64,000 bases of DNA from Microbotryomycetes sp. JL201 (Eukaryota; Basidiomycota; Microbotryomycetes). The translations under genes and the position numbers were made by a program. The notes under the pieces are model-generated. The model had not been told where the DNA came from and searched no databases. It worked only from the letters and a program-made list of their open reading frames with translations. Position 1 is the stretch's first letter, and each line of letters opens with the position of its first letter. This document shows positions 15,601 through 61,150 of this stretch, in pieces. Where the stretch lies: positions 124,001 to 188,000 of the forward strand of contig JAQYUZ010000014.1 of the NCBI GenBank assembly GCA_033819885.1, written 5' to 3'.

Positions 15601-16396
15601 CAGAATGCTCACGCGCAAGTAGATCCCGAATGCGTTCCATGTAGATTTCCATGTATGACACCTTGACGAGGTATTCGATACTGGCCGGTGAGCTCATGAT
15701 GCTTGCAAAGATCTGTTCCGTGATACGCGGTATGATGCCTTTGAGCTCATTGTCGTCGATGTTTGGACCCTGTTGGCGGTTCCATGTGCACGGTGGTCAG
15801 CGCCAAAAGCCTGGTGGCGGAATGGGTCGTAGCTCGGAACTCGCCATCATGGTGTGCGATTTGCCAGAGCCGGTTTGGCCGTACGCAAAAACTGTACCGT
15901 TGTACCCGTTCATGACATCTGTTGTTTGGAAATGCACGTTGTGTCATCATCACAGACAAGTGTTTCAAATGTTGGCAGAGTGCCGCTTGCCGTCGACGAT
16001 GCCCTTTACGCCAAATTCGAACACTTCGACCTGCTTTGTGTCCATTTGAAAGACCTTGTCGAAGGTGAAACCTTGTGCGTCTGGGCCTTTCATCATGTCT
16101 TGAGACTTTAGCTTGACGTTTGTGCCATCTGGATCGATCTGAACGATGAATTCGCCGCCTGTCTCGCGCAGCTCGAGCGCGTTTGGGGGCCGAAACCTGT
16201 TATGAGCACCGAACAGGGTCAGATGCACGCGCCACGGAGAGCGTCGACGGCCGGTGTGACAGCGGTCCGAGCATTGGATAGACCCGAAGGCTGACCTGCA
16301 CACAACCTTGATATTGTTTGAAGCCTGCGACGGGCATCGCAGTGTGTCAGATGAGCTTCTTTCGCGCCAGACTTGACAATGTCGACGACGTACCAT
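12610..16396 (-). CDS. Kinesin-1 heavy chain (conventional kinesin)
   Basis: Plus-end microtubule motor for vesicle and organelle transport. Fifteen exons fit in phase and give 952 aa: 16394-16396, 16296-16324, 15991-16196, 15845-15918, 15613-15769, 15400-15543, 15108-15337, 14475-15035, 14183-14416, 14018-14122, 13709-13970, 13588-13649, 12894-13533, 12737-12824 and 12610-12673. The motor has [14 protein letters not shown]-loop [10 protein letters not shown], switch [10 protein letters not shown] and switch [11 protein letters not shown] long coiled coil follows. The tail keeps the autoinhibitory [11 protein letters not shown] motif, typical of kinesin-1. Exon 1 is just the ATG, joined to GCT to give MASNNIK. 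Two introns, 15919-15990 and 15770-15844, start with GC (GCAAGC, GCGAGT) and restore [11 protein letters not shown] and [13 protein letters not shown]. Confidence 0.93.
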
Positions 16397-17183
16397 GTTT
16401 GTGCAAGCGTGTTGGGTCCGCGACGGTGATCGTTCAACGACACTCGCACACAGCCGTCGCCGCTAGTCAGACCGCCCAAAGTTCCGTGTGTGCGCTTCGC
16501 GCTTGTGTCTATGTCGTCAGTGACAGAGCTGGAGACTGAGTGTGTCAAAGTGGGCCGGAGCGACGATCGCCAGCCTCGGCGCACGGTTCGCAGCGAAATT
16601 TCAGGGGTCTGACGCTTGTTCAAGCAAGGCACACAGGCTTGAAAGTTCCGAAACCGATCTGAGTTTGATTTCGGATCTGCCTCAAAAGGGACAAAGAATA
16701 GACAAAATTGCGGTGGGGATGCGCATGAAAGGCGCCTGCGAACGCCGTGGACTTGCTCCCTCTCGCCTCCAGACCACATACACTTGGTCAGGGTGCCTCC
16801 GTCCCTCTCACTGGCCGGGCCATGATGCTGGGTATGCCCAGCGTCAACCCAGAGGTAAGCTGGCGACGGCGGAGATCACCTGACCCGGCGACCACAGCAT
16901 CACCTCGGCGCGGCTTGACCTCAGTTGACTTGACTGACGTCTCGGTCAACTACAGACTCTGGAATCATGGAAAGCTCACCTGCGCTCGAAAGTCGTCATT
17001 GTCGTCGTCGTCTTGCTCTTGAGCCCAAAGGCTCAGCTCGGCGGCGATGAGGGTCGGCAGGGATCGCAACACCCGCCGCTCACCCTCGCCCGACGTCTAC
17101 CTCCAGATCCAACACCGAATTTGGCAAGGTGGATCACCGCACACGGCGCTCCGAGCGACCTTGCCAGCAAAGACCTGCCTGTG
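16397..17183. promoter_or_regulatory. Divergent region between kinesin and RING-ligase genes
   Basis: A 787-bp gap between two divergent starts. The RING gene may start further left: its frame stays open back to 17013 without an ATG, and an ATG in another frame near 16965 could head an extra exon. I cannot settle this. No other feature seen. Confidence 0.35.
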
Positions 17184-18741
17184 ATGGCCGCTTCGGATTC
17201 GGTCTCGGCATACACGGCACGGCCTACGGCGAGGTACTCGAGCGAGTTCACTACTGGACAGGTCAACACGGACGCACAAGGACCTTGCCCAACCCCGACC
17301 TTGTCGGAACCACCGAGCCAGCCGCGAGCACTCTCGCCAGATCCAAAATCAGCGCCACACTCGGCGGACGTGAACGATAAGCTCCCACGCCCTGCGCAAC
17401 GGACTGTAGATTGTCCAATCGATTTTCGGGGCCGACCTGTTTGTGGCAACGCTACGCGCACGCCCTCTTCGCTTGCCAAACGGTCTTCAGAGCTCGCTGA
17501 CGCCAGTGAACAGCTGGCGCGTGCGATCCTGTCATCTCTATCGTCTGTGCGCATCACACTCTCGCCTTTCACCTTATTCTGTCTACTGTTTACCCTGCTC
17601 AGCGGCGTCCATCTAGCCGCACTCGTTCTAGAAGATTCGGTTCTGCGTGTTCAGATGGCCAATCCGCTTCCGCCAGATTTTGCCCGCGGCGACACCTGGA
17701 CAAAGCGCATCACCCGGTTGCAGTGGCGTGTCAACTTGCTTACTCAGCATTTTGCCCTGCAACTCTTGTTGTGCGGCGTCTTGGCAAGCATCTCTGGCTG
17801 GTGCCTGTTTGAAAGCGCTGCAGAAGTTGATCCGGCTAACAATTGGGCGGACGTGCCGTTCGGTCGATGGCTCTTGTCTACCATCGACGACTCTGACGTC
17901 GTGTTGCGCACCCGCAACGGGCCTTACCGAACGCTGCTAGCGATCGAGGTCAGCAGCCGGTAACACGGCGCGTGACGGATCGACACTGACTATTTACCTT
18001 ATCACAGTCTCTCTCGGCGCTCGTAGCGCTGCTTCAACCTTGCAAGCACTTTTTGCCGACGTCGATCCTGCCGTCCTCGGTTCCGCCGCCACTAGCGCTG
18101 CTCACTTCGCACGAGCCTGCGCTGGCAGTTCGGGTCGACAGCTGCTGGCTCGTGTCGCACCTCGTCGAGATGACGCTATCGCTCATGACGTTGGCTCAGC
18201 TGCTTGTACTTGGCGTCAAATTGTGTTCAATCTCGCCATTCAAGGTTGCGCCACACTTGATCTTCCACGCTGCTAGAGGTCGCCTCATTGCCATCTCAAA
18301 CATCAGGATGTCAATGAACAGGACAGTCGATTGCTTGAGAACCGTGTTTCAAGTGTTTCCAGACTCATCAAATATCGACGAGAAGGCCGAAGATGAGGAA
18401 TGGGTATGCACGATCTGCTTTGAAGGAGACAAGTCGGTGACGGGAGAGATGACAACCGTAGCGCGGTGTCGTTTGCCTTGCGGGCACAAGTGTATGTGTA
18501 TTTTCTTTTTACGGGCGAACTCACGAGAGGTTTGATCGTTGATGCGCTCTGCGCAGACCACGCTGGCTGTTTGACTAAATGGCTCGGATTCCAATCTTTC
18601 TGTCCAATTTGTCACAAGGCGGTCGCAGACGAGTCGGATCACGCAAGACGGGCAGCTTCGCTTGCAGAGCCGCCTCCATTGATCGACATGTCGGACGTGT
18701 ACCCTGGTCGAGCGCCACAACGTCGACACGTACTGTCATGA
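17184..18741 (+). CDS. Multi-span membrane RING-H2 ubiquitin ligase
   Basis: Three exons, 17184-17948, 18008-18491 and 18557-18741, give 477 aa from the first in-frame ATG (MAASDSVSAY). The first 150 residues are polar. Hydrophobic segments follow: LSPFTLFCLLFTLLSGVHLA, FALQLLLCGVLASISGWCLF, LSALVALL and LVEMTLSLMTLAQLLVLGVK. Next comes a RING-H2 finger: CTICFE, then CRLPCGHKYHAGCLTKWLGF, then CPICHK. The intron splits the finger between HK and YH, and the join restores the Cys/His pattern. Membrane spans followed by a cytosolic RING resemble Hrd1/gp78 ER-associated degradation ligases, but I would not assign orthology. The N-terminus may lack an upstream exon. Confidence 0.78.
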
Positions 18742-19006: not shown

Positions 19007-19894
19007 ATGCCGACCACGCGTAATATCGGCACGCCGGGTGCTGCCAATGACAAGATAGGCGGTGTGCCCGAATTCCACTACTACGACTTTGCCTCCAAAG
19101 GTCGAGGTGAAGTTATCAGGCTCTTTTTCGAGGATGCTGGTATCGCTTTCGTCGACGTCCGCTACGGCTTCGACGAGTGGAACTCGAAATCTGTCGAAGA
19201 ACGTTCTCAAGTCAAGTGAGCATGCACACTTATTTTCTTCCTCGGGCCTAGCACCTTGCTGCTCGCTCCAAGTAGACTATGGACATTGATACATATGTTT
19301 GATCGCCCAGTCCCGCCGGAACGGTCCCGTTCGTCTTGCTCAACGGCAAAGTGCTAGCCCAATCCTATGCGCTGCTTCGATACTTTGCTCGTCAACTTGG
19401 GACGTACGACGGAAAAGATTCCGAGGCCATGTATTTCGTCGATAGGATCACTGATATCACGGCAGATTGGAGGAGTCGCTTTGTCGATGCGCATTTCGAG
19501 GCTTCGCCAAACGGATTAAACCCTGCCGATACTCCGAAAGCTGTCAAGAACCACAAAGAGTTCCTCATGCCTAGGTTCGTCAGAGCGATCGAAAAACTGT
19601 TGGCGACGTCCAAATATTCAAAGCAAGGCCCTTACGTCATTGGCGCGGACATTACGTGCAAGTCCTGTCGATGATTCCTTCTCAAGCACCAAACTTTAGC
19701 TGACCTCGGGACGTATTACGTCTGAAGACGCTGACATCACATTATGGCAAATGTATCATGACGAGCGCGAGCTCGGCGGTCCTGTCAAAGACTTGATCGC
19801 TCGAGAGTGTCCCACGCTTCAAAAATTACTCAACGAGTTTGAAAGTCGTCCTCAGCTCAAGGATTACTGGTCATCGGATCGTTATTACAACTAG
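19007..19894 (+). CDS. Glutathione S-transferase (sigma-like)
   Basis: Conjugates glutathione to electrophiles in the cytosol. Exons 19007-19215, 19311-19657 and 19728-19894 give 240 aa. The thioredoxin-like N-domain begins FHYYDFASKGRGEVIRLFFE, where the Tyr pair provides the usual catalytic Tyr. VPFVLLNGKVLAQSYALLRY is the G-site cis-Pro and Ser loop. The all-helical C-domain includes GPYVIGADITYADITLWQMY. The second intron (19658-19727) starts GCAAGT rather than GT; only this reading restores ITYADITLWQ. ATG choice: the ORF opens upstream but MPTTRNIG is in good context close to the domain. Confidence 0.9.
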
Positions 19895-23676: not shown

Positions 23677-24931
23677 ATGTCGACGCTCAAACCGCGATTT
23701 GCCCAAGTTGGCGGGCACGAGGCGACCGTGACGCTCATGTCTGACGATTCCAGCATTGTCAACAAGCCGGCGACGCAGTCAGAGCTTGATTGGTACACTG
23801 TGACGGCGCCAGAGCTCGGCGGGATTCTCGGTGAATGGACGCCAGAATTCTACGGCAAGCTCACACTCCAAGGAAAACTCGCCCAGGACGATGATGCGCC
23901 TCAGCAGCAGCAAGATAGCAACGGAGACGAACCGACGCCAGAGGTCAGTCTGTACGCCAGTGGACGAGCAGACGACGCACGGGGCGCCACATTGGCTCGT
24001 CAAACCCTGTGTCGCATCATGTGAGCACACAGTTCGCTAACGCTTGTCTCCACTGCCAGATGATTGTGCTCGAGAACTTGACCTACCGGTTCAACAAGCC
24101 GAACGTGCTCGATATCAAACTGGGCACGCAGCTGTACGACGAACATGCGAGCGAAGAAAAGAAGCAAAGGATGGCGAAAGCGGCTCAGGAGACGACGAGT
24201 GCACAGACGGGTGTCAGGCTGACAGGTTTTCAGGCAAGTCTGCAACAGCTTTCAGCCACAGTCGACAGACAACCTCTGAACGCAGCTGTAATCTGTTCCA
24301 GGTTTGGTGCTCAGAATCGCAACATTACCACATTACGTCAAAATCTTTGGGAAAATCTATCAAAGTCGATCAATTGCATGACGGTTTTCTGCACTTTTTC
24401 GATCCACCGTCATCACCGTTTCCGCCTTCACTCGCCTCGGCCAAATCGAACCCTGAAACACTGCCGGGACAGTACTACATTCCTGTACTCAAGGCAATCG
24501 TCAAACGGTTGGACGAGATGGTTCAATTGTTGGACAAGCTCGAGATCAGAGTCAGAGGATCGTCATTGCTCATCGTCGTTGAAGGTGACCCAGAGACTCT
24601 CAAGTCGACGATGGAACGCATGACCAATGACTACATGACCTCGAACGATGTTACGCCTCAAATCACGAGCGCGCAAGACCAAAAAAATCAACGATCCGAA
24701 AACAACGAGGTCGATGACGATGACGACGATGACGAGGCCGACTCCTCTGATATCGAAGACGAGCATGGCAACGTTAAACCTTCGGCGTTGATACCGTTCG
24801 ACATCAAGTGGATTGATTTCGCTCACGCCAGGCTGGCCAGAGGCGAAGGACCGGATGAGGGATTGATTCTCGGAGTAAAAACGACAAGACAACATTTGCA
24901 AAAAATCATCGAGCGTTTAGAAATCTCATGA
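23677..24931 (+). CDS. ARG82: Inositol polyphosphate multikinase
   Basis: Phosphorylates inositol tris- and tetrakisphosphates in the nucleus and cytosol, feeding inositol pyrophosphate and transcription control. Exons 23677-23943, 24060-24233 and 24302-24931 give 356 aa. The IPK signature PxxxDxKLG appears as PNVLDIKLGTQLYDE. Further on are GVRLTGFQVWCSES, GKSIKVDQLHDGF, the SSLL motif (RGSSLLIVVEG) and the C-terminal IPFDIKWIDFAHARL with the catalytic Asp. An acidic run at 24710-24760 (DDDDDDDEADSSDIEDE) sits in the insert typical of fungal IPMK. The second intron (24234-24301) starts GCAAGT; that reading alone joins TGFQ to VWCSES in frame. Confidence 0.92.
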
Positions 24932-28808: not shown

Positions 28809-31800
28809 ATGGACGACGATGGGGTGACGAGCCCTGGTGGAGGGCTATCAGCGGGGACGAGTGCGGCACCAAAGCGTGTCACGGTCAAGCGCAGCCAGCG
28901 CGCGGTCAGTCTCAACTCTTCCACATACGAGCTCACTCGATTGACTCATTCCGTCGTCGAACGCAGTGCGTGCAATGTCGCAAGTTGAAAAAGACTGTCC
29001 GTCTGTGCCGGCTCGCCTTGCCAATCCGATGTGCATGCTCAGTGGCTGATTTGTTTGGTGGTCTGAGCCGAGCAGTGCGTTCCCGACACAGAGGGTACAG
29101 GCGTTCCGTGTTTGCGATGCAAAAAGAACGGAACTCAATGCGTCTTTGACAAGCCAGCGAGCAGCGTCGTTGAGGACGAGTACGCACTTATATTGCCTGC
29201 GCGGCAGACGTAACGGGCTCGGGCCACATCTAACCGCCATGATGTCTGCAGGGGGTTAAGCAGGCTCAGCACAATAGAAGCAACGCTCGCAACACAAGAA
29301 CGCAGACTTGACACGATCGTGTCCTCGATCGGTCAAATCACGGGCAAGTGTCAAGTTTGTGCTTTGCTTGAATTGTTCTCTGAGCTGACCTGAGAGAGGG
29401 CTCCCTGCGAGCAGCAAACCTGCACGAAGTGCTCGGATGGATCAGGTCAAATGCCATGGGAGGACCAGCGACGCCTCACTCTCACGACGCTATGCATCAG
29501 GCCTTGTTCAACCCGAGCTTGAGCGGAGCGGCTGCTCTGAATCCGCCACAGGTTGCGACGAATGCTCCGCTGCCAGTGCCCAATCCGCCGTCGCTCCCGA
29601 TCTTCTCGGCGTCAATCCTGCACCCGGCTTCGACGTCAAAACAGTCAGACTCTGCATCGCCAGCTGGCTCGACGAGCCGATTAGACGCCTTGGCCCACCT
29701 GGCAGCTTCGCCAGACTCGAGCCACGCCCCAGGCAGCGGCCAGGTGGACAGATTTGCGTCCCGCTTGCACGCGCCAATCCAAGCCCTAGCAGATGCAGCC
29801 GACCAGCTGCAGCAGAGTGGCGGCGATGACACAGCAGCGGCGAGCGAACCAAAATACAAGCCAGGCCCGATCAGCCAAGCAGAAGAGCGTCCGAAGAAGC
29901 GGGCGCGCATGGCTATGGGTGCAGCAGCACTCGCAGCCATCACGCCTTCGGACCGGCCACTCGACGTCGTCAGCAAAGGGATCATCACGGACAGGCAGGC
30001 TCGCTCACTCGTTTTGCTGTGGCTCAAGGAACTGCAACCTTTCTGCTCCATCATTGACCCCGAAACACCCTACAACACGCTGCGCTCAAACACGTTCAGG
30101 TTCAACGTACTCTTGTACACGGCTTTGCGTGCCCAGACGGGCAACAACGTTCCCTCGAAAGAGTTGATTGCCGTTGCAGAGCAAGTCCGGGACGCGGTTC
30201 GACACGTTATCTTTGACACGGCCCCGCAGCTTGAGACAATCCAAGCTCTGGCCATTTTGGCATGCTATCACGACGAGCCGTACACTTTGTCAGGGCACGC
30301 ACTGCGCTTGGCTTTGTCGGTTCGGTTCGAGACAACGTTTGAGTTACTGGAAGAACACGGATGGGACAAGGCGGACGACAGGGCCAGACACCTGACGTCT
30401 CAACTCCGATTGTGGTTGTACCTTGTCTTTCTCGAGTTCAAGCACACCCGCAGCACAGGTCGATTGATCCTACTGCGGCAAGAAGACGTCGATTTTTTGG
30501 ACGAGAACGCCGATAGACTTTTGACGCTGCCGCACTCGATACCCGATGACAGGCGCACGGTGGCCAATCTCAAGCTGACTTTTGTCGAAAGGCGCATTTT
30601 GCTTAAAGCAAGGACGTTCACTGTGGATGACGACATACCGGCGCGCGTGGCGTTCTTTAACCAGACGAGGGATCTACTCTTGGCGAGACATCAGACGTAC
30701 GATGCCAAACTTGGCGAGTCGAAGCAGGACCACATTGAGCGTATAAACTCCTTCCTGACGAAATTTCCTATCGCAGCCGAAGTGTACCGTTCGAGCATGG
30801 ACTGGCGGCGAAGGAGTCAGATGCGACATTACACCGAGTCGATCATGTTTCTCGCGGCAAACACGTTCGGTCAACTCTTGTTTGAGCGCAGAAATGACCC
30901 CGAAATACGTCAGATCGCCCAAGATGCTCTCGTTGCCGCTCAGACCACCGTCAGGGTCGTGTTGCACTCCCCTGCCTATGTCGCCAGCGTCAAATTCTGC
31001 GGATATCTGTTCAGGGTTGACATTGTGTTTGCCGCACTGTTGATGCTCAAATTGGCGAGAATTTTCCCGAGCGTCGTTTTGCCGGCCGATGTCAATGCAG
31101 ACCTGTCGCAGCTGGTCGAGCTACTGAGCGAGACAGCGGGATCGCAGCGTTTCTCATCAATTCTGAGGTGCGAATCTTCTGTTACATGTGTGCCTTGAGA
31201 TATGTGTACCGATCTCCATTCTACCCACAGGCATGCCAAGGATCAGTATCTCGCCTCCATCTCCGGCTCGTCTCCAGCACTTATGGCCAACGTTCAACCA
31301 CAGCAACAAGCTCAGACGATGGAGCAATCAATATTTTCTCCGTCTGCTTTTGAGATGCCTACTCATGCCTCGACATCTACGGCAACCGGTGACGTTCCAC
31401 CCATCTTGCCACCTTGGCTAGCTTCTCAACTTGATCCGCCATCAACCTCTTCATCTCGACAACAACAACGACAACTTCAACAACAACAACAACAACAACA
31501 ACAAACAGACCAAACACGTTATCAACCACATTCGCAACAAAATCACTCCCCGAACGTTCTGACACCAGACTTTTTCGACGTTGCTGGTCCGGCGACAACA
31601 GCTTCTTTGGATTCTTCAACCTCACCGCTCGCTGCACATCTTGGACCAAACCAGAACCAACAGGTATACCAACAGCAGCAGCAGCAGCAGCAACAACAAC
31701 AACAACAACAACAAGTTATTTCAATGTCCAACGTGACTACTGCAGCTCTACTTCCAGGTGAATTAGACATTGATTGGACAAGTCTGCCAAGAGAATTCTT

Positions 31801-36514: not shown

Positions 36515-36805
36515 TTACCCGCCCTTTGATTTTCTTCTCGCACCCCCTCTGCCACGCCCGCTCGTGCTCGTCACAGTCTTTGCCTTTTTCGCGGCAGGTT
36601 GAACCGTGTTCGGCACAACAACGTCGTCGTCATCGTCACTGATCACGAGCAAGTCTGGAGCAGGTTTCCGTTTCGTACTCGTTGTCGAATGGACTCCAGC
36701 GCTAGATGTACCCTTCAGAGAAGCTGCAACGGCCGACTGTTCGCTCGGCTTTGTCGATTTCTTGTCTGCGGACAAAGACGCTGTCGAAGTAGACACTTCC
36801 TTTGC

Positions 36806-36862
<57 letters not shown>

Positions 36863-36871
36863 ATTCTGTGT

Positions 36872-36915
<44 letters not shown>

Positions 36916-39900: not shown

Positions 39901-42618
39901 TTGCAAACCGACAAAGTCGCCACAGCGTAGAAAAACCTCCGATAGGAGCGCAAAATCTTCACGAGACATTTCGAGAGTGCCGTCGACGGCAGATTTTGAA
40001 ATTTTGGCAACGCCTTGCAAAATGAACTTGCGCGTTACCGGCAAGTGAAAACCTTGCTGAGAAAGATCGTCAAGCTTGTAGAACAAGCTCGCGCAGTCTT
40101 CGCCGTCGAGGCGCAAATCGTCGGGCAAAGGCGGCAGACCAATCAAGGTCGGCACATGTCGGGAAATGTCCTGTACCAGATCCTGAATTGCTGCGTCTAG
40201 CAGAGCTCGAACGGGAAAGTTGGACCGCAGTGCAACGCGTCGACGGGCTTGTAAGGGTCCGGCGTCTTCTTGCAGAGCTACTGTCCGGAGCAAGCTTACG
40301 TGCAAAGACGGCTGGAGGAAAGGTCAAGTCAGACAAGAAGTTGGAACGCCGGCAAACAGTCCACGAACAGTTTTCTTGCGCGACAACTCTGTCTCGCCGC
40401 GAGCGATCATCCTTTGCAGATACAATGAGAAGCTCAGGACGTCAACGCGGATGAGTTCCTCAAAGAGCAACCTGATATCGTCGTCCTTGCCGCGCCTACA
40501 GCCGCCACTTGTCGCTTGCTTGTCGATCCAGTCAATGAAGGCGCTCTCAACTACATCCGTCCTACTCGAGCTCTGGCTGCTGTCGAGCGCTCTCTCTCCT
40601 TTCTCCACTTTGAGTAGGCTCGCGACCGCGTACCTTCGATGTGCTCCGTGACGATCCGCTGTCGTGGCCCATGAAAACATCATAGGCAGTTCGACATGCA
40701 AAGGTCGCTTTCGCCGCCGCTTGTGAAATAAGTTTTTGTGACAAGAGGTCAACGACATTGGAAATGCGATTTCATCGAGCGTGTGAATCGTGTCGAGGTC
40801 GTCTGGTTCCGTGCTGTCTTCATCTTCGGTGCTCTTGCTTGCCGCCACGTTTCGGTCTTGCAAGTCGCAGAGCTCCCTCTTGATCGTGCGTTTCAATGCT
40901 GGTTCTTCAAGCTCGAGCAAAGCTTTTTCTATTGTGCTTGCAGACGCGTGCCACAGAGGGGATGAGACGAATGCGTCTGGCAGTGACAGAAAGATGGTCC
41001 GAACGAGAACGACGATTGATGAAGTCATTGACGCTGTGAGCGTTGATTGCAGCGAGGACGAGTTTAACTGTAAAACCATGAAAAGATGGTGAGCGGTTGC
41101 GCGTGTTATCGAGTCAACGACGACTCGCCTCTGCCAGTCTGACGAGACTACAAGCTACGAGTCGGCCAGCGAGCGGCTCGAACGCGAAAAATTCGCCGAC
41201 AAATTCTTCCGCCAAGAAGAGCGCAAAGGGCAGCTGAGCAACATTGCTCGTCTGCACCTGCTTGATGATGAAACGCAGAAAAGCGTCGCCTTCGATCAAC
41301 TGTTCTTCATATAGCATTTCCAGCAGTCTCAGTCTGAGGACAGGCGAGATTGAATCAGCTTGCTGCGCCTTCCTGAAGGCTTCATGATGACTGACGACCA
41401 AGAAAAGCGCGATGTCCACTCGGCCCTCAGACTGGCGTCCGTCATTATGGCTCGTTTCTCTAATCCTATACGACGAGCAGGTATTGTTGACATGGTAGCA
41501 GACGCCCCCGACTTTGAGCTGGCGTCGATGCTGATCTCTGCGAGTTGCTTGGACACGAACTGAAGCAATGCAGAGGTCCATTCGCGTTCGAAATTGGCCG
41601 TGATAGCGGCGGCCGAGTGCGATTGACCGCTGGCCGCCTTCATGCGGACTTGATGTTGCTGCAGATCAGCGGACAGATGAGCCACTGAGTGCTTTGCGGA
41701 GCAGCACGAAGCACATGCACATACAATCTCACTTGCGCCCGACGCCCTGATGAACCATGCGGCGCGGGTCAGTGGCACATTGCGCTTGTACATGTTTTCA
41801 AGCAACGATGTGTCTTTGAGGCTGCCCGACACGTTTGGGATCAATGGGTATAGTTTGGAGAGCGGTACTGTGCTGTTTGCAAGGTCGTTGAACCACAGTT
41901 CTCGCTTGTGGTCAGAGAGCATGGCTCGTTTCGGGAGCTTGAAAGCAAAAGACCTGTGCAACAGCAGAGAGGAGGTCAGCCCTTTTGTCATGAGACAGCG
42001 ATGTGATGTCAAACTGACTCGAATGAAGGCAGGTTCTGACGCTGGCGGGCCAAGACGGCGTCGCAGAGTTGTGACAGATTGCTGAGAATGTTTGATGTCT
42101 TGAGCTTTTCATAGATGAGCTGATGGGCCGAGAACGTCTCGGTCTGTGTGCGTTGTAGCATGTTTCAGCAATTGTGCGCTTTGCGGTGGCGTACATGAAC
42201 TGACGGGCACCACCACTCGGGACGGGTACCCGCTCTTGACGGCCTGCTCCGTCAGTTGATCCTCGTCTTGGCCGTCGCAGGTGGGGTAGAACTGAGGGTA
42301 GCTGATGCTGTCCTGCGCCGCCGCTGCTGCGATCGCGCTGTTGTCGCTGTCGGGTGCTGCTCCTGCCGTTGCCGCTGGCAACCTCGCCAGCCACGGCGCT
42401 CTCCACGACGGCGGCGCGAGATGGTACCTGTGCAGCCCATTCTGTGAGAGAATGTCATCGAGCGCAGACGGCGCAAACGTGTGCGACGTATTGCTCAAGC
42501 CGGTCGTCGAGGATGACACGGCGTGCGTTCCACTGCCTGGCGTCGCTGCACTACTGTGCAACGAGGGCGACGGCCCTGGTGGCAGTCGTTTGCCACCTGG
42601 CCGCGCGCTCGATGCCAT
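36515..42618 (-). CDS. SRB8: Mediator complex subunit 12 (SRB8) with poly-Q C-terminus
   Basis: Part of the CDK8 kinase module of Mediator, which regulates RNA polymerase II. The span holds about 13 short introns and roughly 1,750 codons. N-terminal signatures: YPQFYPTCDGQDEDQLTEQ, FSAHQLIYEKLKTSNILSNL, then the Med12 block FAFKLPKRAMLSDHKRELWF, NDLANSTVPLSKLYPLIPN and NVPLTRAAWFIRASGASEI. The middle has the helical Med12-LCEWAV-type text (SPVLRLRLLEMLYEEQLIEG; GKGHTYLGEQVVKCYHG). The C-terminus has two poly-Gln tracts and a basic GRGRGGARRKSKGG end. The intron at 38180-38249 starts GCAAGC. Start at 42618 (MASSARPGGK) is the first ATG in frame; several internal exon borders are not individually checked. 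Confidence 0.88.
36808..36926 (-). repeat. Two adjacent poly-Gln codon repeats in MED12
   Basis: On the coding strand, a run of mainly CAA codons (about 36869-36915) is followed, after a QTQNQ break, by a run of CAG codons (about 36808-36858). Together they give about 40 Gln. Different codons in the two halves point to separate expansions. Confidence 0.9.
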
Positions 42619-45734: not shown

Positions 45735-47523
45735 ATGGACGTTGACAGTGATCCTCAAACGTACCTGGCTCAAGCCCTCAGCAGCAATAGTTTGCCCGCA
45801 GAGCTCAAGCCGTACTATGAAGCTTTTCAAAGGTTCTACTCTCACAAGTGAGCTTGTTTTGTACACAAGGTCGGCGAGCGATTGTGTGAAAGACGACGAG
45901 GCGCTTGCGTCAACCTCGTCGGGCGAACGAACAAGGTCGAGACTGCTACGCAGCGAGCAAGTCTCGCCGATGCTGCAGCTGAACCATCTCGAAGATCCAC
46001 CCATCCGTCTGTCGAAGGGCGAGAGCGCAACAAGGCTCGCAGTGGTGGCCTCGCTTCGCGTCACATGGAAACGACTTGGCCAGAAAACGCTTCAGTGTTC
46101 CATGTCACTTACTAACCGTCTGTCTGACGCGTACTCTTCACTCCAGGCTGTGGTTTCAGCTGACAAGCACGATCGAGGCCTTCTTGCAATCGCCTGCCTC
46201 TGGACCGTATCAGATCGAGCTCTTTGAATCTTTCATCAAAGACTTTGCAAACAAACTCAATCAACTCAAATTGGTGCACATTGGAATAACTGTCGCACGG
46301 CAATTCAACGGTAAGCGCCCCACGATCTCGAGGGTCAAGGTGACCAGCTCTGACAGCGTCTCGTGATGCAGATGGCACAAAAGCCTTAGAGTTCTTGGAA
46401 AAGCTGGCAGAGAAAGTCGACGGGCCAAACACAAAGGAGGCGTACGTGCTCGCGACGATCGAGTCGGCCTACTTTAAACTGTTGCTCGGTGACAATGAAG
46501 CGACGAAAGCATCAATGGACAAGTGTGAAAAGATCCTCGACACTCTCGACAGCGTCGATTTGATCGTCCACGCCAGCTTTTACCGCGTGTCGGGAGACTA
46601 TTACAAGGTAAGTTGGGGTAGAAGGCCACGCAATCATACTGAAACTGACGCAGCAGCTCTTGACATTGCTCCGCCAGGCCAAAGCCGAGTACGCAAACTA
46701 TTACAAAAATTCGTTGTTGTACCTTGCGTGCGTCAATGTCGACAAGGACCTGACGCACGAAGAGCGAGTGCAACGGGCACACGATCTTGGTCTGTCCGCG
46801 TTGCTTGGGGACATTTACAATTTCGGAGAGCTGGTACGTCTGAATTGCCCGTGCGGCGGCAACTTTATAGCTGACGTGTCGAACCCGGCGTTCCAGTTGA
46901 TGCATCCGATTCTCGAAGCACTGGACGGCACCGAGCACCAGTCGATCAAAGAATTGCTGTTCGCTTTCAACTCTGGTGACATTACCAAGTTTGAGAGTCT
47001 CGTTCCGACTTTGTCACGAGAGGCGAGTCCCGCATCACGAGTGCATTTGCTGATTGGTGACTTACACCGTCTCCTTGGTGCAGCCCATCTTGACTGAGAA
47101 TTATGCATTCCTGCGACAAAAAATTTGCTTGATGGCATTGATCGAGTCCGTGTTCAAAAGGCCGACAAACGATCGAGTCCTGCCGTTCTCCGTCATTGCC
47201 AACGACGCTCGCGTGCCTGTGGACGAAGTCGAACATTTGCTGATGAAAGCTCTATCGTCAGTCTCGTCGTCGTGCTAACCGTATGTTTCCACGTTTACTG
47301 ATACGGATCATGCGGGCGTTTCGTTTCAACCGACAGCTTGAAGCTCATCAAAGGTACGATTGACCAAGTGTCCTCATCAACGTCAATCTCTTGGGTTCAA
47401 CCAAGAGTTTTGGACAGGATGCAGATCGGAGGTTTGAGGGACAGGTTAGCAGGTTGGAGTGACAAGGTGTCTGCTGTTGGAGATTTCGCACAGCAGCAAG
47501 CACCAGAATTGTTTGCTCAATAG
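45735..47523 (+). CDS. RPN9: 26S proteasome lid subunit RPN9 (PSMD13)
   Basis: PCI-domain subunit of the 19S regulatory lid. The protein starts MDVDSDPQTYLAQALSSNSL and follows PSMD13 throughout: AFQRFYSHKLWFQLTSTIEA, DGTKALEFLEKLAEKV, AEYANYYKNSLLYLACVNVD, LSALLGDIYNFGELLMHPIL, NSGDITKFESLVP, then the PCI winged helix (RPILTENYAFLRQKICLMAL; DEVEHLLMKALSSLKLIKGT). It ends SWVQPRVLDRMQIGGLRDRL. Six further introns are short GT-AG. The first intron (45848-46146) is 299 nt, far above the usual 45-80; it keeps a long open frame but no matching PSMD13 sequence. Confidence 0.93.
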
Positions 47524-51133: not shown

Positions 51134-52076
51134 CTAGCGCTCCAAGTATTTGATCTGGTCACCCGCGACAACAACGTGACCCGATTGTTGGAAGAAGACT
51201 GGTCGTTTCCTGGCGGCACGACGCTCTTTCCGGTCGGTCCTTGATGGTTTCCGCTTCGAGTTGATCGTCGAAGCGATCGTCCTTGTGTTGGAATTTGAAG
51301 ACTCTAGCTCTGTCGCGTCGGACCACGCAGGTGTCTCTGGTGGCGCAGGAACTTTTCTTCGAGAGTGGCAGTTCGAGCAGTCGATGTTTACGACGTGCCG
51401 ATGAGGTCCGTTACCTACAGAATCGTTGTCAACTCAAGACATTGATCCCCAATGTGCACGCACGCTTGTTGCGCACTACGGCGGTCACCCCCGGCACGAG
51501 AATGGCGTTGCAGGTTTTGCACATTGTCCTTTTGACGTTTGGGTCCCTGCTCGCCAGCTCAAGTTAAGCCATGGTAGTCTCGGCGCGAAATGTCTGAAAG
51601 ACTTGCATTCTCAGTGTAGCCTTCTTGCCTACATCCTTCATGTTCTTGATCAAAGACTGGCTGAGCAGGACATGCGCCGACTTGTGTCTTTCTGTAGGAA
51701 AAGTAGGAGCTTGAAGGGCATTCGGGTCGTCAAATCCCTGTCCACTTGGTGCAAATTCCAATGCAGGCTGCGTGTTCCCATTCTCAGTGTTACAGAGCGA
51801 TGCGTAATCGCGTGCGGGTCCGTCCACGTCCATCGATGCGTGCCCGGCGTCCGAACGAGGTTGCGTCGGCACCAACAGATCTAGTGTTGCAAATTTGTCG
51901 ACAACATGTCCATCTGTGTGCGAGCTTTGTCGCCTGCGCTTGGTCGGCCGCTCGTCGATGCCATTGGCGAGCAGCGCAGACACCTGATACATGTATGACA
52001 GTCTTTGAAGAATGTCTCTTTGTGGTACAGGCGTGGTTGCCGTCGGTGTGGCTGCAGTGCGCTGCTTCTTGGCCAT
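51134..52076 (-). CDS. RPR2: RNase P protein subunit RPR2
   Basis: Rpr2/Rpp21/SNM1-family zinc protein of RNase P, which trims tRNA 5' leaders in the nucleus. Exons 51603-52076, 51464-51557 and 51134-51414 give 282 aa. The start is MAKKQRTAATPTATTPVPQR. The N-terminal helix reads DILQRLSYMYQVSALLAN, with a KRRR motif soon after. Family core: LSQSLIKNMKDVGKKATLRM, then SRDPNVKRTMCKTCNAILVP and VVNIDCSNCHSRRKVP; the four Cys of CKTC and CSNC are the zinc ligands. A long insert between helix and core and a basic C-terminal tail enlarge it beyond the usual size. SNM1 is a possible alternative, but VKRTMCKTCNAILVPG fits Rpr2. Confidence 0.85.
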
Positions 52077-52515: not shown

Positions 52516-54673
52516 TCAGGTCGAGACCTGGTCCGTCAAGACCTTTCGGATCTCGTGTCTCGATGGGCGCTCCTTTAAATCTCCATCGTCCTTCTCATCA
52601 GCCGACAAGATCGCACTTGCATCAACGCCAGGCTCTCTCTGCACTTCGGAGAGAGCTTCGGCCCTTGGACCTAGACAAGAACTTCAGTTAGATTTCTGCC
52701 GAAAGAAAACTTGTCCGGCCAAGAATGCGCAGGACCCACCTTTGAACCACTTTCGAGCCCAAAAGTACCACGAACCTAGCGTCCAGGCCAGCACAATGCC
52801 GACACAAACCGGAGCGTAATTCAGTGACTGTGAATCAACCGGATTCACAGTCGGCAAGCAAAAGACGACTACAAGGAACGTGATGTAGGCGCAGGTGATT
52901 GAGCCAACGATCGGAGAAAATCGTCCGAGGTGGAAAGGTCCTCGGATACGCTGGAACCTCTGCCTGTTGAGCAGAAGAATGAAAACCGGCAGGCCATCTG
53001 ATTGCGAAATAGTCAGTGCCTGCAGGATGCGCTCTCAATACGAGTGGTGAACTTAAAAGAGATGTACAGGCCAATTGTAGAGATACTTGTTGCGGCAGCG
53101 TACGCCACACTCGAGCCTAGCGAAGGAAGTGCCAGCAGGAACGACAAGAACGCAGAGAACCAGATCGCCCGAACGGGGGATGACCACCTGTCGTCTACAT
53201 GGCTGAGGTATCGGGGAAGGGCCCCGTCTCGGGAGAAGGCATAGACCATGCGCGAGTTTGAGCAGAGACTGCACAGCCCACACAGGAACACACAGCAGAT
53301 GACGAATGAGAACGCGACGATGGCACCCGTTTCGCCGAAAACGTCCACAAAGATCTTGAGCACGGGTTGACCGTAGGGGTTGTCGATGGTAGCCTCCAGA
53401 TCTTGAATCGAGAACAAGTACGAACTAAGAAGGAAGAAGCCAAACACGGCTGACGCTCCCACCGAGGTCAGAACGCCGATCGGAGCGGCGTGAGCTGCAT
53501 TATGCGTCTCTTCAGACAAGTGCGCGCTGGCATCAAAACCTTCGGAGGCGTCAGCAAGCTTTTGAACGGGGGCCGGCCGGGAACTTACCCGTCAAAGTAA
53601 ATTGTGACAACAAGATGCCAACGACGGCAACATAAGCTGGCGATGCCCGAATAGACCAGCCCGGATCGCCCGTACCGTCGTAGAAGGTGCCGAAAACTTC
53701 CTTTGCGGTGCGGTGTGTCGGAGCTCTGGCTAACAATGCGATAGCTAGCGAACCAACTCCGAGCGAGTGAAAAGCGATGGAGAGACGGTTGAAGAAACCT
53801 AGGGTCTTGATACCGAAAGTATTGATCGTCGCGTGAACAACAAGCAGGGCCGCATAGATTCCGATCGTGATTCCTGGTGTCGGCTCGAATCCGTTGATCG
53901 AGGCCAGAGTTGAGATCAATCCAGCCTCTCCGAAAGTGATGCCGGTTGTGACGGCAACCTGTACATTTCAATGTCAACTCGAAGACAGGTCGGATTGCTT
54001 GCAAAGCTTGCCTGCCCCAGGAGGTTGAAGAAGCCGCAGGTGTACGAAGCAAACGGAGACCATGCAGGTGGCGCAAGCAATGCAGCCCAATGATAGGGCC
54101 CACCACTGGTCGGTACGGCTGAGACAACCTCAGCCATACTCGCGGCAACATGCCTGCATTCGTGCTTTCAGCATTCGCTGGAAATGACGCGTGACAACGT
54201 TGAACAACTCACAGCGTAAAGAAACTGCAAAACAGCCAGCCTCCGATCATAACACCGGGTCCACCAGTCGCCAAACCAAAGCTGAAGAGGGTCGTCAAGC
54301 CAGTGACAACTATTCCCGAGTTGTGACGGGGTCACATCGGTTCCAGATATCAAGGGCAAAGATAAGATTCGGCGAGGAGCGAAAGCGGGGTTTAGCGATT
54401 GTCGCTCTTGATGCGACAATTCTTACCTGAAATAATACTGAAAGACACCCCGAATGACTCGAGCACCGACCAGCCGCGCCTGAGTTCTAGGCGGGACCGT
54501 GATAGACGTCAGTGCTCCTGAAAGACGGTGCAGGCCAAATGGCGAGTGTTCCGCATATGCCTACCTTGCTTGTAGCCAAGTTGACCGAGCTTGTCAGCAT
54601 CTGCTGCCTCTCCGGTCCCCCGCTGATTGTGATGATGCTTCTCTGGATCAACATCAATCACTCCGGCCGGCAT
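52516..54673 (-). CDS. Amino acid/choline permease, APC superfamily (UGA4/HNM1-like)
   Basis: Twelve-span proton-coupled uptake protein of the plasma membrane. The start MPAGVIDVDPEKHHHNQRGT leads into DKLGQLGYKQELRRGWSVLE, then SFGVSFSIISVVTGLTTLFS and FGLATGGPGVMIGGWLFCSF, the TM1 Gly motif of the family. Further blocks: VVSAVPTSGGPYHWAALLAP, FDASAHLSEETHNAAHAAPI and NSRMVYAFSRDGALPRYLSH. The tail after the last span is acidic/polar. First exons are 54565-54673 and 54427-54486. The intron at 53959-54011 starts GCAAGC and restores LLGQVAVTTG. One late join near 52990-53030 is uncertain. Substrate cannot be told from sequence; GABA, choline or another amine are candidates. Confidence 0.87.
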
Positions 54674-54952: not shown

Positions 54953-56753
54953 ATGTTGAGAAGTAATTCGCAACAGGATCTCGTCGCCGGTCAGACATTG
55001 GCATGTAGACCGGGTTTCAATGTGATGCAGTCGTTCTCCGGCCGAGCACGATTCGCTGCTGTGTTTCGCCAGCAGTTCTGCCGGCATCGGTGAGCTTATT
55101 GGAAGCGCATGAATTCGCCTGAGGGTTGCGCTGTCATCTACTTGCCACTACTCGAGCGCCACACGGAATCCTTCCCAGCTGATCAACCCGCGGATGTACT
55201 CCGAGTGCACCTGATCTTCGACCCGACACTCGCAGTCACGTGCTTCTTGGAGCTCGAGAGTTTGCCAACGTGCAAGCCATCAAGTCGTGTCAATCGCCAG
55301 CAGGCGGTCCGAATCATGTCTGGACTTGTCCCAAAAAGCATGTCGTTCAGCTCTTTGTATGGACTCGTGCCGAACCAGCTGCGACCGGCAACTCCGCAAT
55401 CACAACACGCCGCTCAGCGCGATGTAGCAGCACTTCAAGGTGATGACAGCGGCGAGGCGGACACTCAGATCATCTCATCGAATGAAAGGACTGCGACGAC
55501 AGTACCTCATGCCACGACGCGATCTGCAACGATGACGGCACCACGGGTCCGTGAAGCAGAATTGCAACTAAGCGCCGATTGCCCGCACTGCTCTGGCGAG
55601 GTTGTTATCAAGGTACCAAAGTATATGATGCAGGCCATGGCACCTGCAGCCGGGCGCATGACGACGCCACAAGACGAGTTCGGGTACGGTCACGCTCATC
55701 ATCACCTTGTGGAGGACCGGCAGCAGCAGGCGGACACGATGCGGGAACGGGTCGTCAATCTTGCCGTCAAGGCTGCCACTGCGTTCAAAGAGTCTCGCGT
55801 CAGTCCTGAGCGGCAAGAGTAACAGGCCGAGTGTCTGACTTCAAAACTACAGCTGCCAGCATTGATCGCGGGCGTCATTCGCGCGACAATAGCGCTTGTG
55901 GTGTACCTCGATCAAACCTTCTCCATTCATCAGCGCCTCATCATGGTGTTTTGGATCGTGCTCGCAGACTTGCAGCGCATCGAACAAGAGGTTGGCTTGC
56001 TGCGCAATTCGGGCGACGCCATCAGCGTATTGTGGTCAGTCGGACGTTCCGAGCGTCTCGATGGTCCGCTGACTTTCTGGCAATAGGGAGGCCTTCGTCA
56101 AAGGGGCAATTGGCAAGCGTTGTCGGATCTCGGGTAGTACGAACAATACTGACATTGACAACTCATGAGCAGCACTTGGAAAACCTGAAAGAGGAACAAA
56201 TGCACGACAACAATTTGACCAGAACCAGCAGTATCGTGGATCAAACTTGGCCGGCTCGCCTTCGATGCCAAATCTCGGCGGACCCCCTGGGCCATCAGGA
56301 TACTTGCAGCCACCTTACACTTGGAGTGCAAGCGGTCAAGGAACAGGCACAGAAGACAACTACGACCACTCCGCCGGAATCTCGTCTTCCTCCGAATTTG
56401 AGACTAATTCAGTTAGCAGTCGCGCCAGCAACAGCAAAAACAGACCCAAAACGCTTCGAAGGATGCACAATTCTGTGCCATCGTTCCATAATGATGTTCC
56501 TGGCTCACGATCTGGCGCCTCGACGCCCGGCAGTCATCCTCAAGGTCACAGCTCGGCGAACGAGTTTTTTGAAATGTCGAACGCAGGAGGGATGAGACCG
56601 AGACTGGGTAGACAGCGAAGCCGCAGTGGACCTCACGATGGGACATCGACGAGAGATGATCCATCTAGGACTCCAACTGGCAGGGAACGAGGATGGGTCG
56701 CGAGCAGAGTGGCTGGCGTCGCTGGAGCAGTCTTGCCGGGCATGAGAGGATGA
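54953..56753 (+). CDS. Protein of unknown function with one hydrophobic segment
   Basis: Five exons close in phase: 54953-55089, 55261-55798, 55853-56034, 56087-56118 and 56173-56753, giving 489 aa. The N-terminal part is MLRSNSQQDLVAGQTLACRP; a later ATG at 55316 (MSGLVPKSMSFSSLYGLVPN) is a possible alternative start. A CPHC motif sits in LSADCPHCSGEVVIKVP. A hydrophobic segment, LPALIAGVIRATIALVVYLD then QTFSIHQRLIMVFWIVLADL, is followed by QRIEQEVGLLRNSGDAISVL. The last third is disordered and Ser/Gly/Arg-rich. I do not recognise the family. A single-CxxC plus membrane segment is all I can state. Confidence 0.6.
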
Positions 56754-56902: not shown

Positions 56903-57956
56903 ATGCCTGCGATCAACTACGAAGAAGATACGGAGTTCAACGAGGCGTTACGACGTCATGGTATCCTGCCGCCCAAGCAGCCAGCAGCCGGAGACGACGG
57001 CGATGCTGATGCAGCAAATGCCGATGCCTTACAAGCTCGACCTGATTCCCCGTCATTGTCGGACCTGGACGACTTGGACGATCTGGATATTAACGTTGAC
57101 GACAAGGTGCGACGTGACGAGCTCGAGCAACAGTTGGCTCAACGCAAGCGAGAGCAACAACAGTTGGACAGCAAACAAAAGTTTGGAAGGGTCTACCCGA
57201 TCTCTAAACCTGATTACAAGAGGGAAGTGACGGACGCATCTACGGAACAGCTGCCTGGCGAACCGGAAGACTGGGGCACGGGTGTCGTTTGCGTCTTGCA
57301 CAAGGACAGGCGAGTCTGACCTATCGTCTCTGTTCTCGGCCGGACTCTGACCAATCAAGACGACGCGAGCAGTGTGCCTGCGAGCAAGCAACTTATGCCC
57401 ATCATCAACGAGCTTGCCTCGTTGTATCCCGCCACCAAATTCGTCTCAATCGTATCTGATCAATGCATCGAAAATTATCCCGACAAGAATGTGCCTACAG
57501 TCATCGTGTACAGGAACGGAAAGATGATGGGTCAGGTTGTCGGCATTTCAGCTTACGGCGGCGAAAAGATGAAGTTGATAGGCAAGTCTTTGCACGCACA
57601 GTTGGATTCAAACGAAAAGTCAAACAAATGCTGATCACAATCGATTTGAATCCTTCACAGATGTCGAGAGATTCCTGTTCGCATTCAGGGGTATTGATTT
57701 TCACCTCAAAAAGGGTTACGACCAGCGGTCTTATGAATCGAGACAAAACGAAGCGCGAGACATGGCGTCGGCAGTCGGAGGCGACTTGTTGCAACCTCAG
57801 ACAAAATCGACGAGGACGCAAGAAAAGAAGCATGACGATGAAGACGAAAACGATGACAGCGAGGATGATCAGACGTTTGTGGGTGGAGGCAGGCGGAGTG
57901 GGATCAGGTCCAGCTCTCGCAAGATTGATTCAGACGATGACGAATTTGATTTGTGA
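56903..57956 (+). CDS. Phosducin-like protein 2 (PLP2-type)
   Basis: Thioredoxin-fold co-chaperone of the CCT chaperonin. Exons 56903-57309, 57370-57581 and 57661-57956 give 304 aa. Start MPAINYEEDTEFNEALRRHG; the N-terminal helical part has RRDELEQQLAQRKREQQQLD and FGRVYPISKPDYKREVTD. The fold reads DWGTGVVCVLHKDSSVPASK, LMPIINELASLYPATKFVSI, NVPTVIVYRNGKMMGQVVGI and DVERFLFAFRGIDFH. The tail is acidic (KHDDEDENDDSEDD). Both introns begin with GC: 57310-57369 (GCGAGT) and 57582-57660 (GCAAGT). Each is the only reading that keeps the fold in frame. It converges on PRCC with only 50 bp between stops. Confidence 0.88.
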
Positions 57957-59456: not shown

Positions 59457-59546
59457 GTTTCGTAGCAAAGTGGAAAGCGAAAGCCAGCGCAGCGCGGCTC
59501 GAGTTTCAGCCGCAATCCCATTCTTAACAGTCGCACACCTGACGCC

Positions 59547-61150
59547 ATGGTGTACCAGCTGTGTGTTCTTGGATGTGGCACGATGGGTATCGCCGTCTTG
59601 TCAGGCGTGCTGGACAACTTGCGCGCGCCGAATCCACCGCGCGAGCACGACGACGACAGCCAGCCGTCGACGCCGATGGGCAGCATGATTCTGGACGCAA
59701 AGCCAGAGAGCTTGCCAGATAGGTCAGTCGAGCTTGTGTGCCCTGTGTCATCCTCCTTTGCTCGACGGACGAGCGATTGCAGTCGGCCGAAACGCTCGAG
59801 ACGGCTGCGAAGCCGTTGCTGCATGCCATCTTGGCACGCAGGCGGTAGACCTATTGCTCGCACGCAACGGACGGCTGAATCATCATCGCTCGAGCATACT
59901 CAGCATGACGAGCTGACTGGTCTGTCTTGGCCTTACCCCACATTCTCTCGCTGCTGCCGTTTTGACTCGGAAATTCTGGTGGCGTTGCCGTCGTTCATCG
60001 TCATGATCTACACACGGATACAGATTCGTAGCGACAGTCAACAGGATGGAAACAGTCAAGAAACTCCGGAAAACGTTTGCTCAGTTGGGCGGACTCGGTC
60101 CGACTGTCGACGTGCGACAAGCAGTCGACAATGTCAGGTCTGTGCAAGAGTCGGACGTCATCTTGTTGTGGCAAGTCATCAGCTCGAGGTCTTGCAGAAT
60201 TCAAAGTTGAACCGGCACCCTGTTCTAGTTGCAAACCCCAACTGGCAGCACACTTGTTGCTCGCGCCAGGCATGTCGGAAGCGCTCGAAGGCAAGCTGTT
60301 AATCTCAATCTTGGCCGGTACGACAATCAGTATGATGCGAGAATGGGTACCCGCTTCTTGCACCGTCGTCAGGAGCATGCCCAACACTCCTTCGAAGGCA
60401 AGACGACATCTGTCCGTGCACGCATTTTGAGCGTAGCTGACGAGCCGAAGATAACAACTTCAGATTCGAGAGGGCATGACGGTCGTTTCAACGCTCGATC
60501 CAACCAATTCGCGGACGCCGTTCTACAGGGATATTCTCATGGCATTATTCACACCGCTCGGCAAATGCCGCTTTATGGACGAAAAGGTAAGCCGCTTCGC
60601 GACCAAGCTCGTAGTACGGACCTGGGACGAATCTGAAAAATCTTCAATCTTGCGACTCAGCACTTTGATGCAGTGACAGCCGTTTGCGGATCAGGTCCGG
60701 CCTTTGTATGCCTCGTGCTCGAAGCGATAGCGGATGGCGGTGTCATGATGGGTTTGCCACGTAGCGAAGCGCTCGAGTTGGCCGCGCAAAGTCAGTGCTA
60801 CCCTACTCACCGTGCGCTGAAGAGCACACATGGCTGACGACACGAATGTAACAGCAATGCAAGGCGCAGCTCGCATGGTATTGCAAACGGGCATACACCC
60901 AGCTGCGCTGAAAGACAGCGTTACGAGTACGTTCAACCTTTGACCGCTTTCTGTATCGAGATACGAGTGATTGACAACATTTTTTGTGGTCCTTGTGACA
61001 GCTCCTGGAGGATGTACGATCGCGGGATTGCTCGCGCTCGAGGACGGACGAGTGCGTTCGACCGTCGCTAGGTGTATCCAGGCGACGACGATGCACGCCG
61101 CCGGTCTGGGTCAAACATCGGTCACAACAACATTGTCTAATGGCAAGTGA
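59547..61150 (+). CDS. PRO3: Pyrroline-5-carboxylate reductase
   Basis: Last step of proline synthesis, NADPH-dependent. Seven exons, 59547-59722, 60024-60170, 60229-60397, 60464-60586, 60661-60790, 60855-60926 and 61002-61150, give 321 aa. The Rossmann start is YQLCVLGCGTMGIAVLSGV. Family blocks: RFVATVNRMETVKKLRKTFA, ESDVILLCCKPQLAAHLLL, LLISILAGTTISMM, RSMPNTPSKIREGMTVVS, AVCGSGPAFVCLVLEAIADG and DSVTTPGGCTIAGLLALEDG. The first intron is 301 nt. The second and third (60171-60228, 60398-60463) start with GC (GCAAGT, GCAAGA) and restore LLCCKPQ and TPSKIREGM. It shares a 90-bp divergent promoter with PRCC. Confidence 0.94.

Follow-up and report, generated by a model that had tools for sequence, protein, structure and literature searches.

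Introns opening with GC form a general, context-dependent class in the genome of Microbotryomycetes sp. JL201

We sought to understand why so many introns appear to open with GC in one 64-kb stretch of the Microbotryomycetes sp. JL201 genome (hereafter the window; positions are numbered from its first letter), given that Table 1 of PMC7072748 puts the mean GC-AG share in fungi at 1.009%. The original prediction, made from the letters of the window, had listed twelve such introns, estimated their share at near 10% and offered as causes either a relaxed donor choice, in U1 or 5' splice-site recognition, or selection for weak, regulated donors. Read on the coding strand, each of the twelve listed intervals has GC as its first two letters and AG as its last two. 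With the 15 non-GT donor dinucleotides given one common prior, a gene finder trained on the organism's own genome predicted 10 of the 12 exactly; a model allowing GT and GC donors only returned 11 exactly and kept the donor in all 12. The observation is confirmed.

The best alignments to solved structures (phmmer against the PDB) cover nine GC junctions and place a gap at none of them (slashes below mark the predicted exon-intron boundary). These junctions lie in genes for kinesin heavy chain (15919..15990, acg/GCAAGC, and 15770..15844, atg/GCGAGT, both on the minus strand), a glutathione S-transferase-like protein (19658..19727, plus strand, cgt/GCAAGT; the alignment has one gap, 8 residues upstream of the junction), an inositol polyphosphate multikinase-like protein (24234..24301, plus, cag/GCAAGT), the proteasome subunit Rpn9/PSMD13 (47023..47083, plus, gag/GCGAGT), a phosducin-like protein (PLP2a, 57310..57372, cag/GCGAGT, and PLP2b, 57582..57660, tag/GCAAGT, both plus) and pyrroline-5-carboxylate reductase (PRO3; 60171..60228, gtg/GCAAGT, and 60398..60463, aag/GCAAGA, both plus). 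Each was predicted by both models with the exception of PLP2b, exact in the GT/GC-only model, for which the 16-dinucleotide model prefers a CA decoy that lies 15 nt downstream and uses the same acceptor. For PLP2a the proposed donor stands and the proposed acceptor does not: 57372 (CAG), 3 nt further 3', is likelier than 57369 (GAG).

Frame and coding score are the basis for three further introns predicted by both models, in genes that carry the names given in the original prediction: a zinc-cluster transcription factor (29344..29414, plus, cgg/GCAAGT), a DNA topoisomerase I-like gene (TOP1; 35392..35519, minus, ttg/GCAAGT) and a MED12-like gene (38180..38249, minus, gag/GCAAGC). Both models also predict an intron in a gene originally named permease-like (53959..54011, minus, cag/GCAAGC), for which the phmmer search of the PDB gave no match. 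Three GC introns were absent from the earlier list, namely that of Rpn9, a second in the MED12-like gene (41068..41128, minus, gag/GCGAGT) and one in an unnamed gene (56113..56172, plus, ttg/GCAAGC), the latter two again predicted by both models. Two weak candidates were set aside: 51547..51606 (minus), called by both models in a low-scoring gene (score 4-6), was left out of the counts, and 63880..63959 (plus, GCGAGA), at the window end, was left out of the shares, being called by the GT/GC-only model alone (the 16-dinucleotide model instead places a GA donor at 63898). With GC at their start, AG at their end and a single reading frame across the junction, the GC introns are frame-joining and homology-supported features, and are probably spliced as such in vivo.

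The surplus extends beyond the window. Across a sample of 254 kb (the window and 19 other 10-kb stretches of the same genome, 190 kb), the equal-prior gene finder called 425 GT introns, 36 GC introns and 33 introns spread over the remaining 14 dinucleotides, each with at most 4. Counting only genes with a score of at least 15, the window holds 14 GC and 93 GT introns (14/107, 13%), and the other 19 stretches hold 22 and 332 (22/354, 6.2%, 95% CI 4.1-9.2), where the decoy mean is about 2 calls per dinucleotide; the share is thus higher in the window than in the rest of the sample (Fisher p = 0.037). The predicted share near 10% is reached in the window and is too high for the other loci, which nevertheless lie well above the fungal average of about 1%. 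When a model was trained with GT donors only, on the other loci, priors of 0.05 and 0.02 still yielded 12 GC introns for the window and lower priors yielded 9, 10 and 5, with decoys at no more than 2 each. GC-AG introns are a general trait of the JL201 genome, at about 6-8% of introns in 254 kb; roughly one intron in fifteen opens with GC rather than GT, and a GT-only annotation would mis-splice about that proportion. The surplus is described here from one genome, and any extension of it to a lineage is tentative.

Within the 254-kb sample, counting by motif alone gave no clear surplus of GC over decoys (GC 18, as against 49 for AC, CC and TC together, or 16 each). Over the whole assembly the same approach returned 1,289 GC matches against 1,970/3 = 657 for each decoy, which agrees only loosely with a GC surplus: relative to a backward-pattern control GC rises 2.2-fold, and motif counts are weak evidence because decoys rise 1.9-fold and GTAAGT only 1.5-fold.

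The GC donors are compensated elsewhere in the site. Relative to GT donors they are enriched in A at +3 (22/36 versus 118/425), A at +4 (35/36 versus 290/425) and G at -1 (27/36 versus 212/425), and nearly lack C at +3 (1/36 versus 94/425). The share of GC depends steeply on context, reaching 16/42 where positions +3 to +6 read AAGT, 10/68 for GAGT, 5/31 for AAGC, 2/61 for GAGC and 1/71 for CAGT; outside the AAGT, GAGT and AAGC contexts, GC is present in just 5 of 320 donors. Without G at -1 the share drops to 6/26 for AAGT and 1/48 for GAGT, and among G/GYRAGT donors 19 of 36 carry GC. The last figure, based on 36 donors, lies near the C:T composition of the introns themselves (C 0.291 and T 0.246 in GT-intron interiors, giving C/(C+T) = 0.54). 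The mean predicted energy of pairing to U1 is -4.8 kcal/mol for GC donors and -5.7 kcal/mol for GT donors; median intron length is 63.5 nt versus 64 nt, and CTGAC is the commonest branch motif in both.

JL201 GC-AG introns resemble the major-spliceosome kind in their AAGT-like remainder, AG acceptor, and GT-like branch site and length. U12-type donors are AT/GTATCC-like, whereas the 36 GC donors comprise seven hexamers, none with a TATCC-like remainder; a reading as U12 introns, like one as shifted GT donors, found no support.

We hold, at a probability of roughly 0.75, that the GC-AG introns are genuine, belong to the U2 spliceosome and are a general trait of the genome, served by machinery that looks ordinary in its examined 5' splice-site parts and tolerates either C or T at +2 in strong donors. 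A C at +2 would present a mismatch to U1; the site would still work because the rest of the donor (G at -1, A or G at +3, A at +4, G at +5 and T at +6) forms good pairs first with U1 and next with the ACAGAGA box of U6, with the CTGAC-like branch site and short intron (~64 nt) probably contributing. Donors would need to clear just a modest total strength, such that with a near-perfect remainder C and T at +2 become almost interchangeable and drift toward the C:T ratio of introns, and with a weaker remainder C at +2 is purged. The surplus would then reflect a less stringent demand for U at +2, with drift rather than regulation maintaining the GC donors. The suggestion of a relaxed donor choice is supported at +2 by the 6-8% share over 254 kb and by GC making up about half of G/GYRAGT. 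A bolder and quite tentative form is that the GU rule amounts here to a GY rule subject to a threshold on strength: in G/GNRAGU, C and U at +2 would be functionally equivalent and stand at neutral frequencies, some component of the spliceosome having ceased to proofread +2, and the frequent +3C donors would be a second footprint of the loosening. JL201 opens the near-universal GU of 5' splice sites to study as a graded trait in a small fungal genome, and the claim that +2 identity is neutral given a strong donor remainder is numerical and testable.

What might have loosened the reading of +2 is a separate matter. A trans-acting change (in Prp8, U1-70K, Prp28, a U1 variant or a U1/U6 modification), of which the GC surplus would be the footprint, is compatible with tolerance of +2 in strong donors and would be its cause; we consider such a change possible, though improbable. 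GC being as common as GT in G/GYRAGT exceeds what compensation alone would lead one to expect of a genome with 1% GC-AG, and +3C donors are frequent too. Against this, the pairing regions of both snRNAs are canonical: the one U1 gene found begins ATACTTACCT (C7:112439), and the U6 ACAGAGA box is likewise canonical; an altered U1 5' end is not supported. No second U1 was detected at E 0.001 beyond that one match (41 of 245 first-look candidates scored), leaving a variant U1 unsupported. METTL16-family, SNRNP27 and LUC7 genes are present, and in the predicted proteins the U1C finger, the SNRNP27 C-terminus and the product of the sole LUC7 gene found look ordinary when judged by eye, with no evident change. 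A review (PMC11732430) describes two classes of 5' splice site, U6-ACAGA-type and U5-loop-1-type; JL201 shares with that scheme donors rich in +4A and +5G and the same three genes, and departs from it in that its GC donors combine strength at -1G with strength in the intron part, instead of being strong on a single side.

Alternatively, a mutational or conversion bias to C might turn GT into GC in tolerant strong donors under normal splicing stringency, an account we likewise think doubtful. C exceeds T in intron interiors (0.29 against 0.25), and PMC3033335 reports common GC-AG introns in some G+C-rich algae: 39.6% in Aureococcus anophagefferens, 22.2% in Micromonas pusilla and 7.7% in Chlorella sp., these being the most G+C-rich of its 61 species (69.5% and 65.9% for the first two). 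JL201 has a GC-AG surplus in common with the three, but is a fungus whose sample is just ~54% G+C, and genomic and splice-site G+C correlate weakly among the fungi of PMC7072748 (r ~0.24). That source gives as a fungal outlier Meyerozyma guilliermondii, with ~6.67% major non-canonical sites, and both PMC8703528 and PMC5832005 cite Rep et al (2006) for GC-AG introns in euascomycetes, Neurospora among them. High-GC-AG lineages are known from algae; JL201 is a fungal case, at six to eight times the fungal average and with GC about equal to GT within G/GYRAGT, and in the open-licence literature that we drew on we claim no absence of others from print.

Maintenance of GC donors as weak, regulated sites (for intron retention or alternative 5' splicing), the other cause originally offered, fares worse and is in our judgment unlikely, even though a regulatory role has been proposed for GC-AG introns of human genes (PMC7242645). 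Retention would preserve the reading frame for only 1 of the 36 GC introns, as opposed to 41 of 425 GT introns; GC and GT donors overlap in predicted U1 pairing; and the GC introns do not differ from GT introns in length or position, nor is their phase remarkable.

That most GC donors are misread nearby GT donors or coding sequence is very improbable, given the ceiling of 4 calls per decoy dinucleotide and the gap-free PDB junctions. A GT-only model does find a legal path for each of the 28 genes in the sample that have a GC call, scoring lower in 27, and several GC calls of the GT/GC-only model, with odd donors and small score gains, are probably false. Among ten GC genes scanned outside the window, a Pfam domain spans the junction in seven (in one, just 3 residues from the domain start). 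The GT-only alternatives were inspected for nine of the ten, and every one of them loses or changes residues or breaks up the gene, in seven cases inside a Pfam domain or at its border.

Some dependence among donor positions may arise from the method, as Viterbi training of the donor columns reinforces the consensus that it has itself learned, and the finder's loss of weak donors also yields negative dependence. We do not claim avoidance of over-strong U1 pairing with +2C as its tuning, since a threshold on total strength, whether natural or imposed by the gene finder, would produce the same dependence. Near-perfect GT donors (G/GTRAGT) number 17, against a mean of 62.8 over 500 column shuffles, none of which gave so low a count, and the commonest GT donor hexamer is GTCAGT (70/425).

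To weigh donors independently of visual judgement, we wrote a gene finder combining a three-periodic fourth-order coding model, matrices for donor, branch site and acceptor, and intron lengths, solved by exact dynamic programming. The assembly holding the window (C6:124001-188000) comprises 17.15 Mb in 92 contigs. Its genes, intron density and the shortness of its introns point to a fungus, probably a basidiomycete; a 5.8S rRNA search yielded no match. Training used 254 kb (G+C ~54%), consisting of the window and 19 usable 10-kb stretches from contigs C1-C10 (L009, all N, was left out of an initial 20). Each of the 15 non-GT dinucleotides received an identical prior of 0.02, such that 14 serve as decoys for GC. 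Under this symmetric prior the converged introns comprised 425 GT, 36 GC and, for the 14 decoys combined, 33 (each at most 4), placing the GC share at 36/461 or 7.8% (Wilson interval 5.7–10.6). Counting only genes scoring at least 15, the window contains 93 GT, 14 GC and 2 other introns (GC share 14/107, 13.1%) and the other loci 332, 22 and 31 (22/354, 6.2%; 4.1–9.2); the two shares differ at p = 0.037, and richness in GC introns may be why the window was flagged. We report the share from the decoy-containing model rather than from a GT/GC-only model, because GC calls of the latter with odd remainders and small score gains are probably false. In the window, a model trained GT-only on the other loci still called GC introns, 12, 12, 9, 10 and 5 of them at priors of 0.05, 0.02, 0.01, 0.005 and 0.001, with each decoy at most 2; outside the window, over the same range of priors, GT-only training gave 22, 20, 18, 18 and 16 GC introns, with each decoy at most 5, 3, 2, 2 and 1.

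Motif counts, taken alone, are weak evidence. Across the whole assembly (donor hexamer, 20-50 nt, then CTGAC, with some stretches counted as N), the GCAAGT motif occurs 1,289 times, ~2-fold above the decoy mean (ACAAGT, CCAAGT and TCAAGT, 1,970 in total or 657 each), and GTAAGT 629 times; no clear GC surplus emerged by motif count in the 254-kb sample (GC 18, three decoys 49, GT 11). The rise over a backward control was 2.2-fold for GC, 1.9-fold for decoys and 1.5-fold for GT.

The original prediction had listed twelve GC-AG introns in the window. On its coding strand each has GC at the start and AG at the end, the remainders after GC being AAGT, AAGC, GAGT or AAGA; the symmetric-prior model reproduces ten exactly and the GT/GC-only model eleven. 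For the phosducin-like protein gene the agreement is partial: at its first GC intron (57310) the proposed donor holds and the model moves the 3′ end to a CAG ending at 57372, and at the second (57582-57660) the symmetric-prior model instead picks a CA decoy 15 nt downstream. The first of these introns ends in a tandem acceptor, GAGCAG (57367-57372), of which CAG is the more likely to be used because C precedes AG in 82% of learned acceptors. Well-scoring genes supplied further GC introns, in the MED12-like gene (41068-41128), the Rpn9 gene (47023-47083) and at 56113-56172; weak candidates at 51547-51606 and 63880-63959 were left out of the counts. Long glutamine tracts occur in the MED12-like protein (about 36515-37200, minus strand) and the zinc-cluster factor (about 31400-31750, plus strand), all four coordinates being approximate.

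We then searched PDB chains with the spliced proteins and inspected the top alignment for each. Every GC junction covered by a best alignment (9/9) is gap-free: two each in kinesin (E 1e-158), the phosducin-like protein and P5C reductase, and one each in GST (where a single gap lies 8 residues upstream), IPMK and Rpn9. The permease found no match among the PDB chains searched; the TOP1, MED12 and zinc-cluster junctions (gene names from the original prediction) rest on reading frame and coding score, and that at 56113 on the gene-finder calls. Outside the window, the GT/GC-only model placed a GC intron in 28 genes, with a GCRAGY donor in 21; ten of these 21, picked by eye, were scanned with Pfam. 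A domain crosses the GC junction in seven (ThuA, Put_Phosphatase, adh_short, 2-oxoacid_dh, Acyl-CoA_dh_N, HK and Ctr, the 2-oxoacid_dh junction falling just 3 residues past the domain start), and no domain crosses it in the other three. A GT-only model finds some path through all 28 genes, with a score drop in 27; in the nine of ten genes where GT-only alternatives were inspected, all nine lose or change residues or break the gene apart.

The hexamers of the 36 GC donors are GCAAGT (16), GCGAGT (10), GCAAGC (5), GCGAGC (2) and three singletons. GC donors exceed GT donors in A at +3 (22/36 vs 118/425, p = 9e-5), A at +4 (35/36 vs 290/425, p = 7e-5) and G at −1 (27/36 vs 212/425, p = 0.005) and rarely carry C at +3 (1/36 vs 94/425, p = 0.004); GC and GT introns are similar in length, branch motif and branch distance. 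These enrichments are the compensation already known for GC-AG introns, and the quantitative point of interest is the steep context dependence. By positions +3 to +6, the GC fraction is 16/42 for AAGT, 10/68 for GAGT, 5/31 for AAGC, 2/61 for GAGC and 1/71 for CAGT (5/320 in contexts outside the first three); with G at −1 it reaches 10/16 for AAGT and 9/20 for GAGT, against 6/26 and 1/48 without. Among G/GYRAGT donors (G at −1, then a strong donor with Y at +2), C occupies +2 in 19/36, or 17/35 under the GT-only-trained model; in GT intron interiors C (0.291) and T (0.246) stand at 54% C of C+T. Human GC donors amount to a few percent, best contexts included. The near-neutrality of +2 inside strong donors is what would interest specialists.

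The phenomenon itself is known, and the present genome adds a new case. In two surveys, the mean fungal GC-AG share is 1.009% (PMC7072748, Table 1), Meyerozyma guilliermondii has about 6.67% major non-canonical sites (PMC7072748), and the top GC-AG shares among 61 species, 39.6%, 22.2% and 7.7%, all belong to G+C-rich algae (PMC3033335). The present genome joins the high group at about 54% G+C.

We regard these introns as U2-type, C at +2 costing one U1 pair and being tolerated where the remaining positions match well. The mean predicted energy of pairing with U1 is −4.8 kcal/mol in GC donors vs −5.7 in GT donors, and GC donors therefore fall within the range accepted by the spliceosome. The donor threshold itself seems low, because many GT donors are weak (GTCAGT, GTGCGT, GTACGT); under such a threshold, near-perfect donors could lose T at +2 harmlessly. 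Selection for regulated donors, proposed originally, finds no support: in-frame retention would be possible for 1/36 GC introns vs 41/425 GT introns. The other proposal, a changed U1, is unsupported too: the sole U1 match, with 41 of 245 candidates scored, begins ATACTTACCTTG, the canonical pairing end, and the ACAGAGA box of U6 is canonical. That U1 snRNA (L001:1501-1678; E 3e-5) is strongly divergent beyond its 5′ end, hence its 31 bits, under the Rfam threshold of 69.5. The genome encodes a U1C zinc finger, one LUC7 gene, a METTL16-family gene and SNRNP27; compared by eye with known sequences, the predicted U1C, LUC7 and SNRNP27 appear ordinary. The presence of METTL16-family and SNRNP27 genes fits the donors' preference for A at +4, a link that a review (PMC11732430) reports in Saccharomycotina. 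A 67-nt GT-AG intron (length by our count) splits the U6 gene (L030, G000:C63:52479-52661) directly 3′ of ACAGAGAA; U6 introns are already known in fungi (Canzler et al, 2016, as cited in PMC5832005).

GT donors have features of their own. GTCAGT is their top hexamer (70/425, whole sample), and the 94 with C at +3 carry A at +4 in 89%, G at +5 in 100% and T at +6 in 83%; two examples in the window, at Rpn9 residue 343 and P5C reductase residue 236, lie inside gap-free PDB alignments. Such a frequency of C at +3 is unusual. Near-perfect G/GTRAGT donors number 17 in the 254 kb vs 62.8 expected from column shuffles, a scarcity that could be a threshold effect or reflect avoidance of over-strong U1 pairing.
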